Below are positions 12,841-56,880 of a stretch of 64,000 bases of DNA, piece by piece. How positions within the stretch are numbered: the first letter of the stretch is position 1; each line of letters opens with the position of its first letter. Source of the stretch: Marinilabiliaceae bacterium JC040. GTDB taxonomy: Bacteria > Bacteroidota > Bacteroidia > Bacteroidales > Marinifilaceae. The notes beneath the pieces were generated by a model. That model saw only the letters and a program-made list of their open reading frames with translations. It had not been told where the DNA came from and ran no database searches. The stretch spans positions 372,001-436,000 of the forward strand of contig SNAP01000001.1 of assembly GCA_022496785.1 (NCBI GenBank). Reading direction: 5' to 3'. Position numbers and translations under genes: made by a program.

Positions 12841-12928
12841 AGTCATCCATTGTCCATGCTTCGTACAAGCTATGATGGAGAAAGGATGGACAGACCATGG
12901 ACAAACCATGGACAAAGTACGGAGATGG
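12841..12928. repeat. Imperfect hairpin with tandem ACCATGGACAAA units
   Basis: ACCATGGACAAA occurs twice head to tail (12894-12905 and 12905-12916, 11-bp period). TTGTCCATG at 12850-12858 is the reverse complement of its core, so the region can fold into alternative hairpins. It is richer in GC than the surrounding sequence. No ORF is seen. Confidence 0.5.
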
Positions 12929-35414: not shown

Positions 35415-37487
35415 CTATTTTTTATAAAATTTATATATTAAATGTATACCTATTTCTCTAGGATTGCTGTAAAAGGTATAAAATCCATTTAGGTAGCCAT
35501 TTGAATCATATCTTCTGTTTGAAATATTGTTTGCATAAACATATACTTTAAAGTTTTTGAATTCATATCCTGTTTTTAGATTTATTATTTCATATGGAGA
35601 ACGAGCAAATTTATTAGATTTATCAAAGTACATTTTTCCATTCCCTGATGTATTTAATCCTATAAATAAACCTGATTTATTTAGATAGTTTAGACCTAAA
35701 TTAAAAGTGTATTTAGGAGCGAATTGTGGTGTATTATTTTTATAATTTCCTTGACTATCAGTAAAGGAGTCAAATTTTATATCATTGTAACCAAATCCTC
35801 CATCTAGAAATAATCCTTTAGTTATATTATAACTAATTTCAATTTCTACTCCTTTTGAAGTTGCTTTTGCTGCATTGGTGGTATAAAATAACATTGGATT
35901 TATATTTTCTTCAACTTGCATATCGTTTATGTTCATGTAGAAAAGGGATGCATTAAAGAAAAGTCTCTTTTGTAACCATGTTGTTTTTATTCCTGTTTCG
36001 TATGACCATAGTTTTTCTGGGGCGTAACTATAATATTTAGGATCTGTAGCTCCCCAATTAAATCCACCAGAACGATAGCCTTGTGCTGCGCTGATATATG
36101 ACATTATATGAGAAGAAAATTTATAGTTTAAAGCTATTTTAGGAGAAAAAGCATACCAGTTTTCATTTGTTTTTATTTTAATGATTTTATCATTGAAATC
36201 TGCAGTTTCCTTTTCATATCGAATTCCTGCAATTATATGTAGTTTATCTATTAATGAATAATCTGCATTTGCAAATATTGCATAGGTTTTACCCTCAATA
36301 TCACGTTTAGTATGTCCAGCTATAGGTAAGATAGATGACGTTATATAATCAATTCTATTATTTTCTATGTCAAAATAGATCCCCATTAAAGCTTTCAAAC
36401 GCTTTTTATTGTATTCTAAACGAAGTTCTTCTGAATATCTTTCATATTCATTGCTCTTATTGATTTCAAAAATAGATTTTTCTGAAAAATCCCAATCTTC
36501 TACAGCTGTGTCTTTATATTTCCAACGAGTTGCGATAGATGTTAAAGAAATAGAATTAGAAATATCGTAGGATATTTTAAGTGATTGTGAATTCGTTTTT
36601 GGATCTTCATGAGATTTTATATTTGAGTTAACTACGTAATCTTTTGGTTTTTTAAGCATCCATGTCTTTGCACCATAAGCTGTTAAATTTCCACTTACAC
36701 CTCCATTATTATCTCTTCTAATTGTATTAATTAGTGAAATTTCAATTTTATTTGTTGGAGTCCATCGAATTTGACTTCTTCCAGACCAATGTTCTCTATC
36801 GTCGACAGTATTTCCTGTTTTAGCATGTTTTACCACACCATCTTTATGAAAATAATTACCACTTAAAGAAAAATATAGTTTATTCTTTATTATAGGAGTA
36901 TTAAATCCAAATGTAATTTTTCGTTTATTATCTTGTCCAACTTGAATTGATGCTTTTCCATACATGCTATTCCCTGGCTCTTTGCTTATTATATTGATTA
37001 CTCCAGCCTGTGCTCCTTTTCCATATAAAGTTCCTTGAGGTCCACGTAGAACTTCAACGCGTTGGATGTTTAGTAAATCGTCTTCATATCCTGCAGAAGA
37101 AAGGAGAGGTACACCATTAACGAACATTCCTGCTGAAACTCGTAGAGAAGTTCCTGATGAACGAATTCCTCTAATAGATGGAGAAACTAAAGATGGATGA
37201 CCTTCTTGAAAGAATATAGTATTGGGAATATGTCTCCCCATTTCTATTACTGATTCTATTTGTTTTATATCAAAATATTTGTCATTAAAAACAGAAATAG
37301 AAATTGGTATTTCTTGTAGTTTCTCTTCTTTTTTCTGAGGGGTTACAGTTATTTCGTTTAATTCCATAAACATTTTAATAGTATCTTTTTTTATTGATGC
37401 TTTTTCGATATTGTTTTGTGCGCAAACTAGCGTAGAAACAAACATTACAACAATAGTTAGTAGTAAACTATTTTTTAATTTTTCCAT
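35415..37487 (-). CDS. TonB-dependent outer-membrane receptor, FyuA/siderophore type
   Basis: A 690-residue protein with a signal peptide (ending VCAQ), a TonB-box region (ELNEITVTPQK), a plug domain (ISVFNDKYFDIKQIESVIEM, then VEVLRGPQGTLYGKGAQAGVINIISKEP) and a 22-strand-type barrel ending IHLIYKFYKK. The RGPQGTLYGKGAQAG plug with the KKEEKLQEIPISISV start resembles pesticin/yersiniabactin and iron-complex receptors. It lacks the CarboxypepD_reg domain of SusC transporters. The promoter carries a direct-repeat operator next to the divergent AraC gene, which suggests ligand-responsive activation. Confidence 0.9.
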   Translation of the reverse strand: MEKLKNSLLLTIVVMFVSTLVCAQNNIEKASIKKDTIKMFMELNEITVTPQKKEEKLQEIPISISVFNDKYFDIKQIESVIEMGRHIPNTIFFQEGHPSLVSPSIRGIRSSGTSLRVSAGMFVNGVPLLSSAGYEDDLLNIQRVEVLRGPQGTLYGKGAQAGVINIISKEPGNSMYGKASIQVGQDNKRKITFGFNTPIIKNKLYFSLSGNYFHKDGVVKHAKTGNTVDDREHWSGRSQIRWTPTNKIEISLINTIRRDNNGGVSGNLTAYGAKTWMLKKPKDYVVNSNIKSHEDPKTNSQSLKISYDISNSISLTSIATRWKYKDTAVEDWDFSEKSIFEINKSNEYERYSEELRLEYNKKRLKALMGIYFDIENNRIDYITSSILPIAGHTKRDIEGKTYAIFANADYSLIDKLHIIAGIRYEKETADFNDKIIKIKTNENWYAFSPKIALNYKFSSHIMSYISAAQGYRSGGFNWGATDPKYYSYAPEKLWSYETGIKTTWLQKRLFFNASLFYMNINDMQVEENINPMLFYTTNAAKATSKGVEIEISYNITKGLFLDGGFGYNDIKFDSFTDSQGNYKNNTPQFAPKYTFNLGLNYLNKSGLFIGLNTSGNGKMYFDKSNKFARSPYEIINLKTGYEFKNFKVYVYANNISNRRYDSNGYLNGFYTFYSNPREIGIHLIYKFYKK

Positions 37488-37596
37488 AATAATGAACTTT
37501 TATATGATATTAGAATTGTTTGCTGTGAATTCATGATTTTATGCGATTGTATCTTGTTTTATTAAAGAGCATTTTTGTAGGACTATTTATTTTAGG

Positions 37597-37656
37597 CAAA
37601 ATTAGATAGTTATAGTAGATTAGAATTTAATCTAAAGAAGAAAGAATTTAATCTAA
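37597..37656 (-). promoter_or_regulatory. Receptor promoter with AraC-type direct-repeat operator
   Basis: On the reverse strand TAATTTTG (37604-37597) is the -7 box of the receptor gene. AGAATTTAATCTAA occurs twice in exact copies, at 37622-37635 and 37643-37656, a 21-bp period (two helical turns), 18-52 bp upstream of the -7 box. This is the classic arrangement for a dimeric AraC-family activator. Confidence 0.7.
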
Positions 37657-37684
37657 GGAAGTTTTATATAAGATATAATGAAAT

Positions 37685-38695
37685 ATGAGATGTAAATATT
37701 ATGAGAAAGGAATGAAATGTGGTGAATTTGACCATGAATTAGTTTTTAATAGTAATGGCATTTCTTCTCAAAATTCTACTTTTTTTGAAAAGCAAGAGAT
37801 TGGCAGAGTATTGTTAAAAACGAATAGTTTCAATGGTATTAATATTATTGAATCAAAATCTAAGTTTTATAATCCTACTATAGCTTATGACAGTGTCGGA
37901 ATTAAGCAAGATTCATTTATTATGTTTTTTAATTTAGGACAAATAATATGTGCAGATTATGGAAATAGATTCACATTAGAAAGAAATAGTCATAATATTT
38001 GGTCGTTAGAAGAAGGGAGATCTAGCAGTTTTTATTTTAATCAAAATCAAGAAAATCATTCTTTATTAGTTTCTTTGGAAGACAATTATTTAGAAAGATT
38101 AATAGAACAATATCCTGAGGTTTTAAAAGTGATATATGAATCTCATTTAAAACATGATTTTACTAGATGGAGTAATTGTGATTTACCAATTAGTAGTGAA
38201 ATTTTTCAAGTTTTGAACCAAATAAATAATGCTTATTTAATGGGTGATTATTATTCTATGTATATAGAATCTAAAATTAATGAATTAATTATATTGCAAC
38301 TACATGAAATTGAAAACCTGAATCAGAAAGTGGTTGAAGTATGTAAATCTTCAACAGATGTAGATAAAATTTATGAAGCTAAAAGTATTATTCTAGATAA
38401 TTATGAAAATCCTCCAAGTATTTATGATTTATCAAAAATGGTTGGATTAAACAGAGATAAGCTAAAAAAAGGTTTTAAAGAAATTTTTAATCAAACTATC
38501 TTTGAATGTTTATTTGAATTTAAAATGCATAAAGCTTATAGGCTTATTTTTGATACAAAAAAATCTATATCTGAAATCGGATTTGATTGTGGATACAGTT
38601 ATGCATCTCATTTTACAACAGCTTTCAGGAGGAAATTTGGTTTTAGTCCAAATGAACTTAGAAAATCTAATAGTAGAAGATGTTCTTGTAGTTAG
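37685..38695 (+). CDS. AraC-family regulator (PchR-like)
   Basis: This 336-residue protein has an N-terminal ligand-sensing domain (1-220) and a C-terminal double HTH: NPPSIYDLSKMVGLNRDKLKK, then SISEIGFDCGYSYASHFTTAFRRKFGFSPNELR. The MVGLNRDKLKKGFKEIF wording is close to PchR-type siderophore regulators. It is divergent from the TonB receptor-methyltransferase operon, whose promoter bears paired 14-bp sites. It probably activates that operon when its ligand is imported. Confidence 0.9.
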   Translation: MRCKYYEKGMKCGEFDHELVFNSNGISSQNSTFFEKQEIGRVLLKTNSFNGINIIESKSKFYNPTIAYDSVGIKQDSFIMFFNLGQIICADYGNRFTLERNSHNIWSLEEGRSSSFYFNQNQENHSLLVSLEDNYLERLIEQYPEVLKVIYESHLKHDFTRWSNCDLPISSEIFQVLNQINNAYLMGDYYSMYIESKINELIILQLHEIENLNQKVVEVCKSSTDVDKIYEAKSIILDNYENPPSIYDLSKMVGLNRDKLKKGFKEIFNQTIFECLFEFKMHKAYRLIFDTKKSISEIGFDCGYSYASHFTTAFRRKFGFSPNELRKSNSRRCSCS

Positions 38696-38963: not shown

Positions 38964-39410
38964 ATGGATAATGATATTCGTGTAAGCAAATGGATAAATA
39001 ATAATTTGGTAGAGCTCTCAAAACTTAAAGAAGGAACAGGTATTGAAATATTAAATAATTGTGGAAAAGCTTGTTGCGAAATGTCTGATTTGTATAAAGG
39101 GGTTTGTGAAGTAAGAAATATAAATGTTTCTGAAGCAAATATAGATACTTTATTTAATGACTTTAAAGAGGAATATTATAATTCTGATAATTTTACAAAA
39201 ATAGATAATACTATAGTTTTAATATTTGAAAATTGTACTTGTCCTTTAGTGAAAAAAGGAGTGAATAATTCATTTTTATGCAATTGTACTATTGGGTACT
39301 CTAAAAAGTTATTTGAAAGATTATTTGATAAAAAAGTAATAGTTAATCTAGAAAAATCTATATTAAGAGGAGATTCAATTTGTAAACAAAACATTAAAAT
39401 TTTAGATTAG
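38964..39410 (+). CDS. Cys-rich protein with a V4R-like C-terminal motif
   Basis: This 148-residue soluble protein has eight or more Cys in pairs: CGKACC (about 32-37), CTCPLVKK and CNCTIGYSKKLFERLFDKKV, then RGDSICK. The last segment resembles the end of V4R/4-vinyl-reductase and related hydrolase-like domains, where the Cys residues may bind zinc or another ligand. It has its own promoter, downstream of the AraC gene. A link to the metallophore locus is possible but unproven. Confidence 0.55.
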   Translation: MDNDIRVSKWINNNLVELSKLKEGTGIEILNNCGKACCEMSDLYKGVCEVRNINVSEANIDTLFNDFKEEYYNSDNFTKIDNTIVLIFENCTCPLVKKGVNNSFLCNCTIGYSKKLFERLFDKKVIVNLEKSILRGDSICKQNIKILD

Positions 39411-55711: not shown

Positions 55712-55752
55712 ATCCTCCCCAGATATCTTAAATATTTAGGGAGGATTTCTTT
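55712..55752. terminator. Bidirectional terminator between hydrolase and GNAT genes
   Basis: A perfect 8-bp stem, ATCCTCCC/GGGAGGAT (55712-55719 with 55739-55746), with inner pairing, between convergent genes. Confidence 0.7.
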
Positions 55753-56605
55753 ATAATGCCATTAGCATTTCGTATTGCTTACCACTCTCTTGTATATGAT
55801 TTGCATTTAGAAATTCAATTATATCTACTGATCTAGTATCAATATTTATAACTTTAATTGAAGGATAATTGTTTTGTTGTATCGTTGCTTTTAATAGCTT
55901 AGAACCTAAGCCTAATCTGCGATATTCTTTTTTTATATATAATTGTGAGATATCTCCAGTTTTAGGTTCAAGTATAGAATATCCAATGTGGGTATCTTTT
56001 GATTTTAATTCCAAGAATATGAAGTCTTTTAGATTTCTTGAAATTGCTTGATGGTTATTTTGCCATGAATGTAGCATGTCAGATTTATTAAATTCTTCTT
56101 GGATTATTGAATATTCAATCTCTTTTATTGAATATTCATCTAATTTATTTTTTTCCGATATATTTATTTCATCTATTTCTTTAATAAAATATGCAAATTC
56201 TCTATTAATTTTTAATCCAAGATTTTTATATATATTAAGTGCTTTTGTGTTGTGTTTAAGTACTTCTAATAGATATTGTTGAATATTGTCTTTTTTTAAA
56301 TGGAGTAAAGAGTATTCAAATAGTTTTTTAGTGTATCTACGTCCTCTATATTCTGAGATAGTACCAGTGCCTGTATCGTAAGCTGTTTTTATATTATTGT
56401 ATTCTCCAATTCCATTTAGAATAAATGAAACTATTTGCTTGTTAATGAATATTGCAAAAGAATGTTTTGGAGAATAGGATCTACGTGTTAACATATTTCT
56501 AAATTCATCTTCATTTATTTGAACCTCATATGTATTAAATGCTTCAGAGAAAGCTTTAAAGATTTTATCAAAACTTACATTTTCAAGATTTCTTATTTCT
56601 TCCAT
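55751..56605 (-). CDS. Tandem GNAT acetyltransferase
   Basis: A 284-residue protein from the ATG at 56605 (MEEIRNLENVSFDKIF). Longer frames start at ATG 56632 or TTG 56656. It holds two GNAT folds. The first (about 1-135) has TGTGTISEYRGRRYTKKLFE and NTKALNIYKNLGLK. The second (about 160-284) has ISQLYIKKEYRRLGLGSKLL and a weak acetyl-CoA loop (RRLGLGSKLL). It probably acetylates a small molecule or protein. The two-domain layout occurs in aminoglycoside-type and other GNATs; no substrate can be assigned. Confidence 0.78.
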   Translation of the reverse strand: MEEIRNLENVSFDKIFKAFSEAFNTYEVQINEDEFRNMLTRRSYSPKHSFAIFINKQIVSFILNGIGEYNNIKTAYDTGTGTISEYRGRRYTKKLFEYSLLHLKKDNIQQYLLEVLKHNTKALNIYKNLGLKINREFAYFIKEIDEINISEKNKLDEYSIKEIEYSIIQEEFNKSDMLHSWQNNHQAISRNLKDFIFLELKSKDTHIGYSILEPKTGDISQLYIKKEYRRLGLGSKLLKATIQQNNYPSIKVINIDTRSVDIIEFLNANHIQESGKQYEMLMAL

Positions 56606-56880
56606 GTTATTATATATTTTGAGTTTGTACATTATAAAAAATTGTAATCTTTTCAATTGTCTTAAAATTATTATAAATATTCATAGTTTCAAATTCTATT
56701 GTTAAAGATTTATATATAAACATAAATATATACATGGTTTTTAGTAGAGTGATGATATATATCTATTTATGTTGTAATCTAGCATGGTTCTTTATTATAA
56801 ATAATTGTTTAATAGTAAATAAGAATATTTGGATATACATAATAATATCCTAAAGTTATTATAAACTTATCCTAAAGCAA
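56606..56880. other. AT-rich spacer between GNAT and GLPGLI genes
   Basis: Divergent intergenic region. Two CCTAAAG words occur near 56850 and 56872. No gene is seen. Confidence 0.4.

Follow-up and report, generated by a model that had tools for sequence, protein, structure and literature searches.

Within the 64,000-nucleotide stretch of Marinilabiliaceae bacterium JC040 DNA that was analysed (hereafter the window), an intergenic region at 37488-37684 with 21% G+C lies between a minus-strand operon on one side and a plus-strand araC gene on the other (Table 1). The operon likely comprises both the TonB-dependent receptor and the methyltransferase. The preliminary description had placed a divergent AraC gene beside a pair of repeats in this region, and the domain content of the protein bears this out. 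The C-terminus of the regulator matched Pfam HTH_18 (6.3e-18) and HTH_AraC (1.7e-9), giving the two HTH motifs of AraC/XylS-type proteins. The predicted structure (mean pLDDT 85) contains a beta barrel at residues 28-131 followed by two HTHs, and matched AraC-family DNA-binding domains, including isolated AraC-type domains, as well as Rns, CsvR, ToxT and cupins; from this model the N-terminus is predicted to be a cupin-like domain of the ligand-binding or dimerisation type. No PchR or YbtA models were among the 25 NCBIfam matches listed, and the protein had no match in IMG/VR. Downstream of araC, a cysteine-rich DUF6144 protein is encoded at 38964-39410.

Table 1. Genes, promoter box, repeats and putative operator units at the locus (window coordinates).
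Feature	Position	Strand	Details
Class I SAM-dependent methyltransferase, 274 aa	34584..35408	-	6 bp after receptor stop
TonB-dependent receptor, 690 aa	35415..37487	-	TIGR01783 TonB-dependent siderophore receptor (NCBIfam), 226.4 vs cut-off 223.5 bits
-7 promoter box of receptor operon, TAATTTTG (consensus TAnnTTTG)	37597..37604	-	plus-strand letters CAAAATTA
Direct repeat copy 1, promoter-proximal for receptor	37622..37640	.	AGAATTTAATCTAAAGAAG; first 14 exact, 18/19 vs copy 2
Putative proximal operator unit, subfamily-motif register	37626..37643	.	TTTAATCTAAAGAAGAAA; 21 nt from -7 box; register predicted
Direct repeat copy 2, distal	37643..37661	.	AGAATTTAATCTAAGGAAG
Putative distal operator unit, same register as proximal unit	37647..37664	.	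TTTAATCTAAGGAAGTTT; register predicted
AraC-family regulator, 336 aa	37685..38695	+	predicted cupin-like barrel at N-terminus, double HTH at C-terminus; proposed operator ligand

The repeat pair in the intergenic region

The intergenic region contains the exact 14-mer AGAATTTAATCTAA twice with a period of 21 bp, at 37622-37635 and 37643-37656, as had been reported in the preliminary description together with its placement 18-52 bp upstream of a -7-like octamer. The length of 14 bp given there holds for the exact match, while the full repeat is 19 bp long and has a single mismatch, AGAATTTAATCTAA[A/G]GAAG. Tandem Repeats Finder returned the pair as period 21, 1.9 copies and 94% matches. The repeats lie 24-63 bp ahead of the araC start codon. 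An exact repeat of length at least 14 at lag 10-60 arose in 46 of 20,000 first-order shuffles of the intergenic region, and 0.15 such repeats are expected per 64 kb. The 14-mer had no further occurrence in the 2.56-Mb assembly, and the pair was the sole intergenic exact direct repeat of length at least 13 at lag 21 among 1.62 Mb of genome sequence, of which 164 kb is intergenic. A chance origin of the pair is unlikely. No Rfam match was found within 37300-37800, and the exact 35-bp tandem pattern had no match in IMG/VR.

Two further candidates were set aside. An inverted-repeat reading, TTAGA-N6-TCTAA, applies around copy 1 only, the left arm being absent from copy 2. The only other exact repeat of at least 14 bp at lag 10-60 in the window, also at lag 21, is a 14-bp one at 56104-56149, inside a GNAT-like gene (55751-56656, minus strand), where it encodes an in-frame 7-residue (heptad) protein repeat; it was rejected as an operator since it is coding, and it indicates that 21-bp duplications do occur.

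The remaining intergenic direct-repeat matches in the 1.62 Mb were CRISPR-like arrays, a dispersed 11-bp repeat and a few single cases. Three CRISPR-like arrays are present in the genome (L184:9473-12624 and L189:15809-18560 on contig 57, and L246:9257-11110 on contig 2), two with closely similar 29-bp repeats (ATTTCAATTCCATAAGGTACAATTAAAAG and CGG variants) and one with a 46-bp repeat at a period of 75-76 bp. The 11-bp intergenic family, AAACCATGGAC, occurs in the window at 12875-12916 and elsewhere in the genome at L168:23, L174:10497, L178:18044, L214:4626 and L249:2773.

Recurrence of the 21-bp lag among relatives of the regulator

A search of the collections turned up no close relative of the locus. 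AraC relatives in two collections were at best ~32-38% identical, and receptor relatives within the order were only ~30% identical, with no detectable AraC relative within the stretch of DNA examined. Methyltransferase orthologs (L034-L036) had no related receptor or AraC gene alongside, and the receptor-methyltransferase pair was therefore not footprintable. As no close relative was available, conservation was examined on the architecture of the AraC subfamily rather than on the 14-mer.

Self-similarity was measured in the region upstream of the start codon of each AraC relative, using the best 15-bp window at lags of 12-45. Across 19 near homologs, window excluded, lag 21 ranked first of all lags (mean z 1.73, next 0.53), a peak reached by none of 20,000 permutations (P<5e-5). 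The same measure gave no lag signal for 60 far homologs, and a paralog of the regulator in its own genome, on contig C57, was without a lag-21 peak. A profile search of the phylum supplied new regions that were not used in forming the hypothesis. At lag 21 these 26 regions had a mean z of 2.45, and the runner-up lag had 0.56; when a single one of nine near-identical Flavobacterium loci was kept, the 18 regions that resulted still had a z of 1.94 at lag 21 (P<5e-5). In another batch of 38 regions, from more distant relatives, the lag-21 signal was only weak (0.50, P=0.04). Furthermore, 12 of 15 matches or better at lag 21 were found in 17 of 38 subfamily regions vs 2 of 54 control divergent intergenic regions drawn from the same kinds of genome. 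The repeated sequence differs from locus to locus, e.g. L048, from a Muricauda, has two copies of CTACGCAAAACGGAA and L275 has two of AAACGCAATAAGGAT. The window likewise carries direct repeats about 21 bp apart, upstream of a promoter.

The divergent gene of the relatives encoded a TonB-receptor plug domain in 7 of the 10 scanned, the other three being a siderophore-interacting FAD protein, a DUF2807 protein and a DUF6796 protein. Another set of AraC relatives (L293-L326), with a divergent gene of ~419 codons, forms a second group with seemingly shorter tandem CGCT-type motifs near lag 21, and in one of these (L304) 14 of 15 positions matched near that lag.

Putative operator motif, promoter spacing and recognition helices

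A two-unit motif model was fitted to the relatives, window excluded, and yielded the subfamily consensus TTACGCnAAACGGATTA, twice, 21 bp apart. According to this model, 24 of 28 loci have the octamer CAAAnnTA (the TAnnTTTG -7 box of the divergent gene) ending 21-22 nt ahead of the proximal unit. In the window, CAAAATTA at 37597-37604 is the sole full -7 match in the neighbourhood, and the putative proximal half-site, 21 nt from it, would lie at or over the position of the upstream promoter element.

The subfamily motif has two boxes ~10 bp apart in each half-site (ACGC ... CGGA), of which the window has only the second, in a weak form; ACGC is absent and the fit of the window to the family motif is weak in absolute terms. 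With the first motif model, the best tandem match fell in another register, 37612 (P=0.016). We infer a register starting at 37626 because of the -7 spacing and the CTAAGG core common to its nearest relatives L120 and L041, with which the CTAA[A/G]G of the window aligns at this start; the -7 octamer and spacer of L041 are identical to those of the window. At a spacer of 21 the motif score of the window unit was in the top 0.25% of A+T-rich genome positions (single-position P = 0.0025), and at a spacer of 22 it was outside the top 0.25%. The part common to the window and its relatives is the CTAA[A/G]GA half, not the AGAATTT half. Across the relatives, what is conserved is the architecture, that is spacing and position, and not the 14-mer.

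Promoters of B. fragilis carry TAnnTTTG at -7 and TTTG near -33 (PMC7366714), and in the genome studied here TTG was enriched 18-20 nt upstream of TAnnTTTG. At this distance from the -7 box, TTG was missing from all 20 operator promoters, and the receptor promoter of the window had neither a TTG nor a TTTG -33 element there. The absence of a -33 element from the operator promoters suggests that the operator stands in for it, as expected of an activator-dependent promoter. A scan for sigma-70 promoters returned sites more rarely than in shuffles.

The HTH1 helix (KLKKGFKEIF) was almost invariant across relatives, matching the near-invariant GGA core of the operator motif. The HTH2 helix was variable: where a proline precedes x-HF, the promoter-side box held CG in all 11 relatives sampled, and where this proline is missing the box was without CG in 7 of 8, window included. 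The association of HTH2 residue type with the ACGC box gave a Fisher P of 1.6e-4, a value that ignores kinship among loci. The window combines an odd promoter-side box with an odd HTH2. The correspondence suggests a possible recognition code.

Proposed regulation, alternatives and known systems

The preliminary description had proposed the repeats as an operator regulated by the divergent AraC protein, and sequence comparison strongly supports this, as both the 21-bp tandem and the distance to the -7 box track the AraC subfamily. Very probably, the pair is a tandem operator for a dimer of the divergent cupin-AraC activator, and takes the place of the -33 element that the receptor-methyltransferase promoter lacks. 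The two monomers would sit on one face of the DNA at a distance of 21 bp, or two helical turns, and each would contact two neighbouring major grooves through its two HTH motifs. The proximal monomer would abut the would-be sigma-ABfr -33 position, 21 nt from the -7 box, and recruit RNA polymerase to the receptor-methyltransferase promoter without a -33 element. The most likely inducer would be a ferric siderophore after its import, or else a different receptor ligand, that binds in the cupin domain; the hint of a siderophore effector comes only from the TIGR01783 match of the neighbouring receptor. The complex would probably also control araC, since the operator sites lie just before its start codon. 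The repeats, the -7 box, their spacing, the protein domains and the recurrence beside relatives of the regulator are observed; binding, activation, autoregulation and the ligand are what we infer from them.

Counting against activation of the receptor operon as the favoured reading, the operator lies equally close to araC and to the receptor promoter, and with repeats 24-63 bp before the araC start codon autoregulation appears, from position, as likely as control of the receptor. The operator might thus serve mainly to repress araC while the receptor is under something else, e.g. Fur, and the repeats do end 24 bp before the araC start, with 0-20 bp in many relatives. Across loci, however, the distance to araC ranges from 0 to >70, and it is the -7 box of the divergent gene that stays at a fixed distance (21-22 nt), which makes a mainly autoregulatory operator unlikely. 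A neutral tandem duplication of a 21-bp A+T-rich stretch, without regulatory role, would account for the duplication of 18 of the 21 unit positions, linker included, as replication slippage would give, and a coding 21-bp duplication is indeed also present in the window. This is nevertheless quite improbable as a full explanation, as no other intergenic lag-21 case occurs in the 1.62 Mb and the pair falls, as measured from the -7 box and the regulator, exactly where relatives keep 21-bp tandem sites of other sequence; slippage may have been the origin of the window operator.

The sites could also be bound by another tandem-site regulator, either one of the further AraC proteins encoded in the genome or an HTCS, whose AraC-type operators in Bacteroides are likewise direct repeats at an average distance of 21 bp (PMC3878776). 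This is the least probable alternative and a very improbable one, given that the lag-21 signal follows the relatives of the neighbouring AraC protein phylum-wide and is absent from other divergent regions, and that the site is present only once in the genome.

With the divergent cupin-AraC protein as the predicted ligand, the window operator belongs with the known 21-bp tandem sites of AraC, XylS and HTCS regulators. The araI1-I2 sites of AraC are spaced by 21 bp. XylS at Pm uses two 15-bp direct repeats next to the -35, each with box A (TGCA) and box B (GGTA) and 6 bp between (PMC5481539). In both systems a dimer occupies direct repeats of two-box half-sites that abut or overlap the upstream promoter element. 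Direct repeats occupied by a dimer at this place are predicted for the window too, where the half-sites have only a weak second box. The two systems differ from the window in sequence, in being of the sigma-70 type where the window has a Bacteroidota sigma-ABfr promoter (TAnnTTTG, no -33), and in that the window regulator is encoded divergently to a TonB receptor. The HTCS of Bacteroides thetaiotaomicron share phylum, AraC-type HTH and 21-bp direct repeats with the window but are membrane hybrid kinases for glycans, whereas the window regulator is a predicted soluble cupin-AraC protein with a siderophore-type receptor as neighbour. PchR and YbtA resemble the window in pairing an AraC-type regulator with an adjoining siderophore-type receptor, and probably in ligand-dependent activation; phylum and operator sequence differ. 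Fe-pyochelin is the intracellular effector of an AraC-type regulator, as summarised in PMC3672683.

It is somewhat more probable than its converse that a Bacteroidota-wide cupin-AraC subfamily, mostly divergent from TonB-dependent receptors, uses one rigid design, in which two units of 18 bp, spaced by 21 bp, stand 21-22 nt from TAnnTTTG, with no -33 element and with a base code in the proximal box that shifts with the HTH2 recognition helix. No description of the shared design for this soluble AraC subfamily was found in the open-access papers searched, and defined activator sites at Bacteroidota sigma-ABfr promoters are few. If true, this design would be a general activation rule for such promoters. 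A fixed geometry with varying sequence would make the operators and regulators of many TonB-dependent receptors predictable from sequence alone, and offers a direct way to study the replacement of the -33 element by an activator in Bacteroidota.

The same gene order of AraC, receptor and SAM methyltransferase was observed on a Vibrio nigripulchritudo plasmid (L153, 4797-8972), which encodes the receptor of highest similarity among those of the plasmid collection. The plasmid methyltransferase had no match to that of the window, and lag 21 reached only 11 of 15 there. Such a pairing may have arisen more than once.
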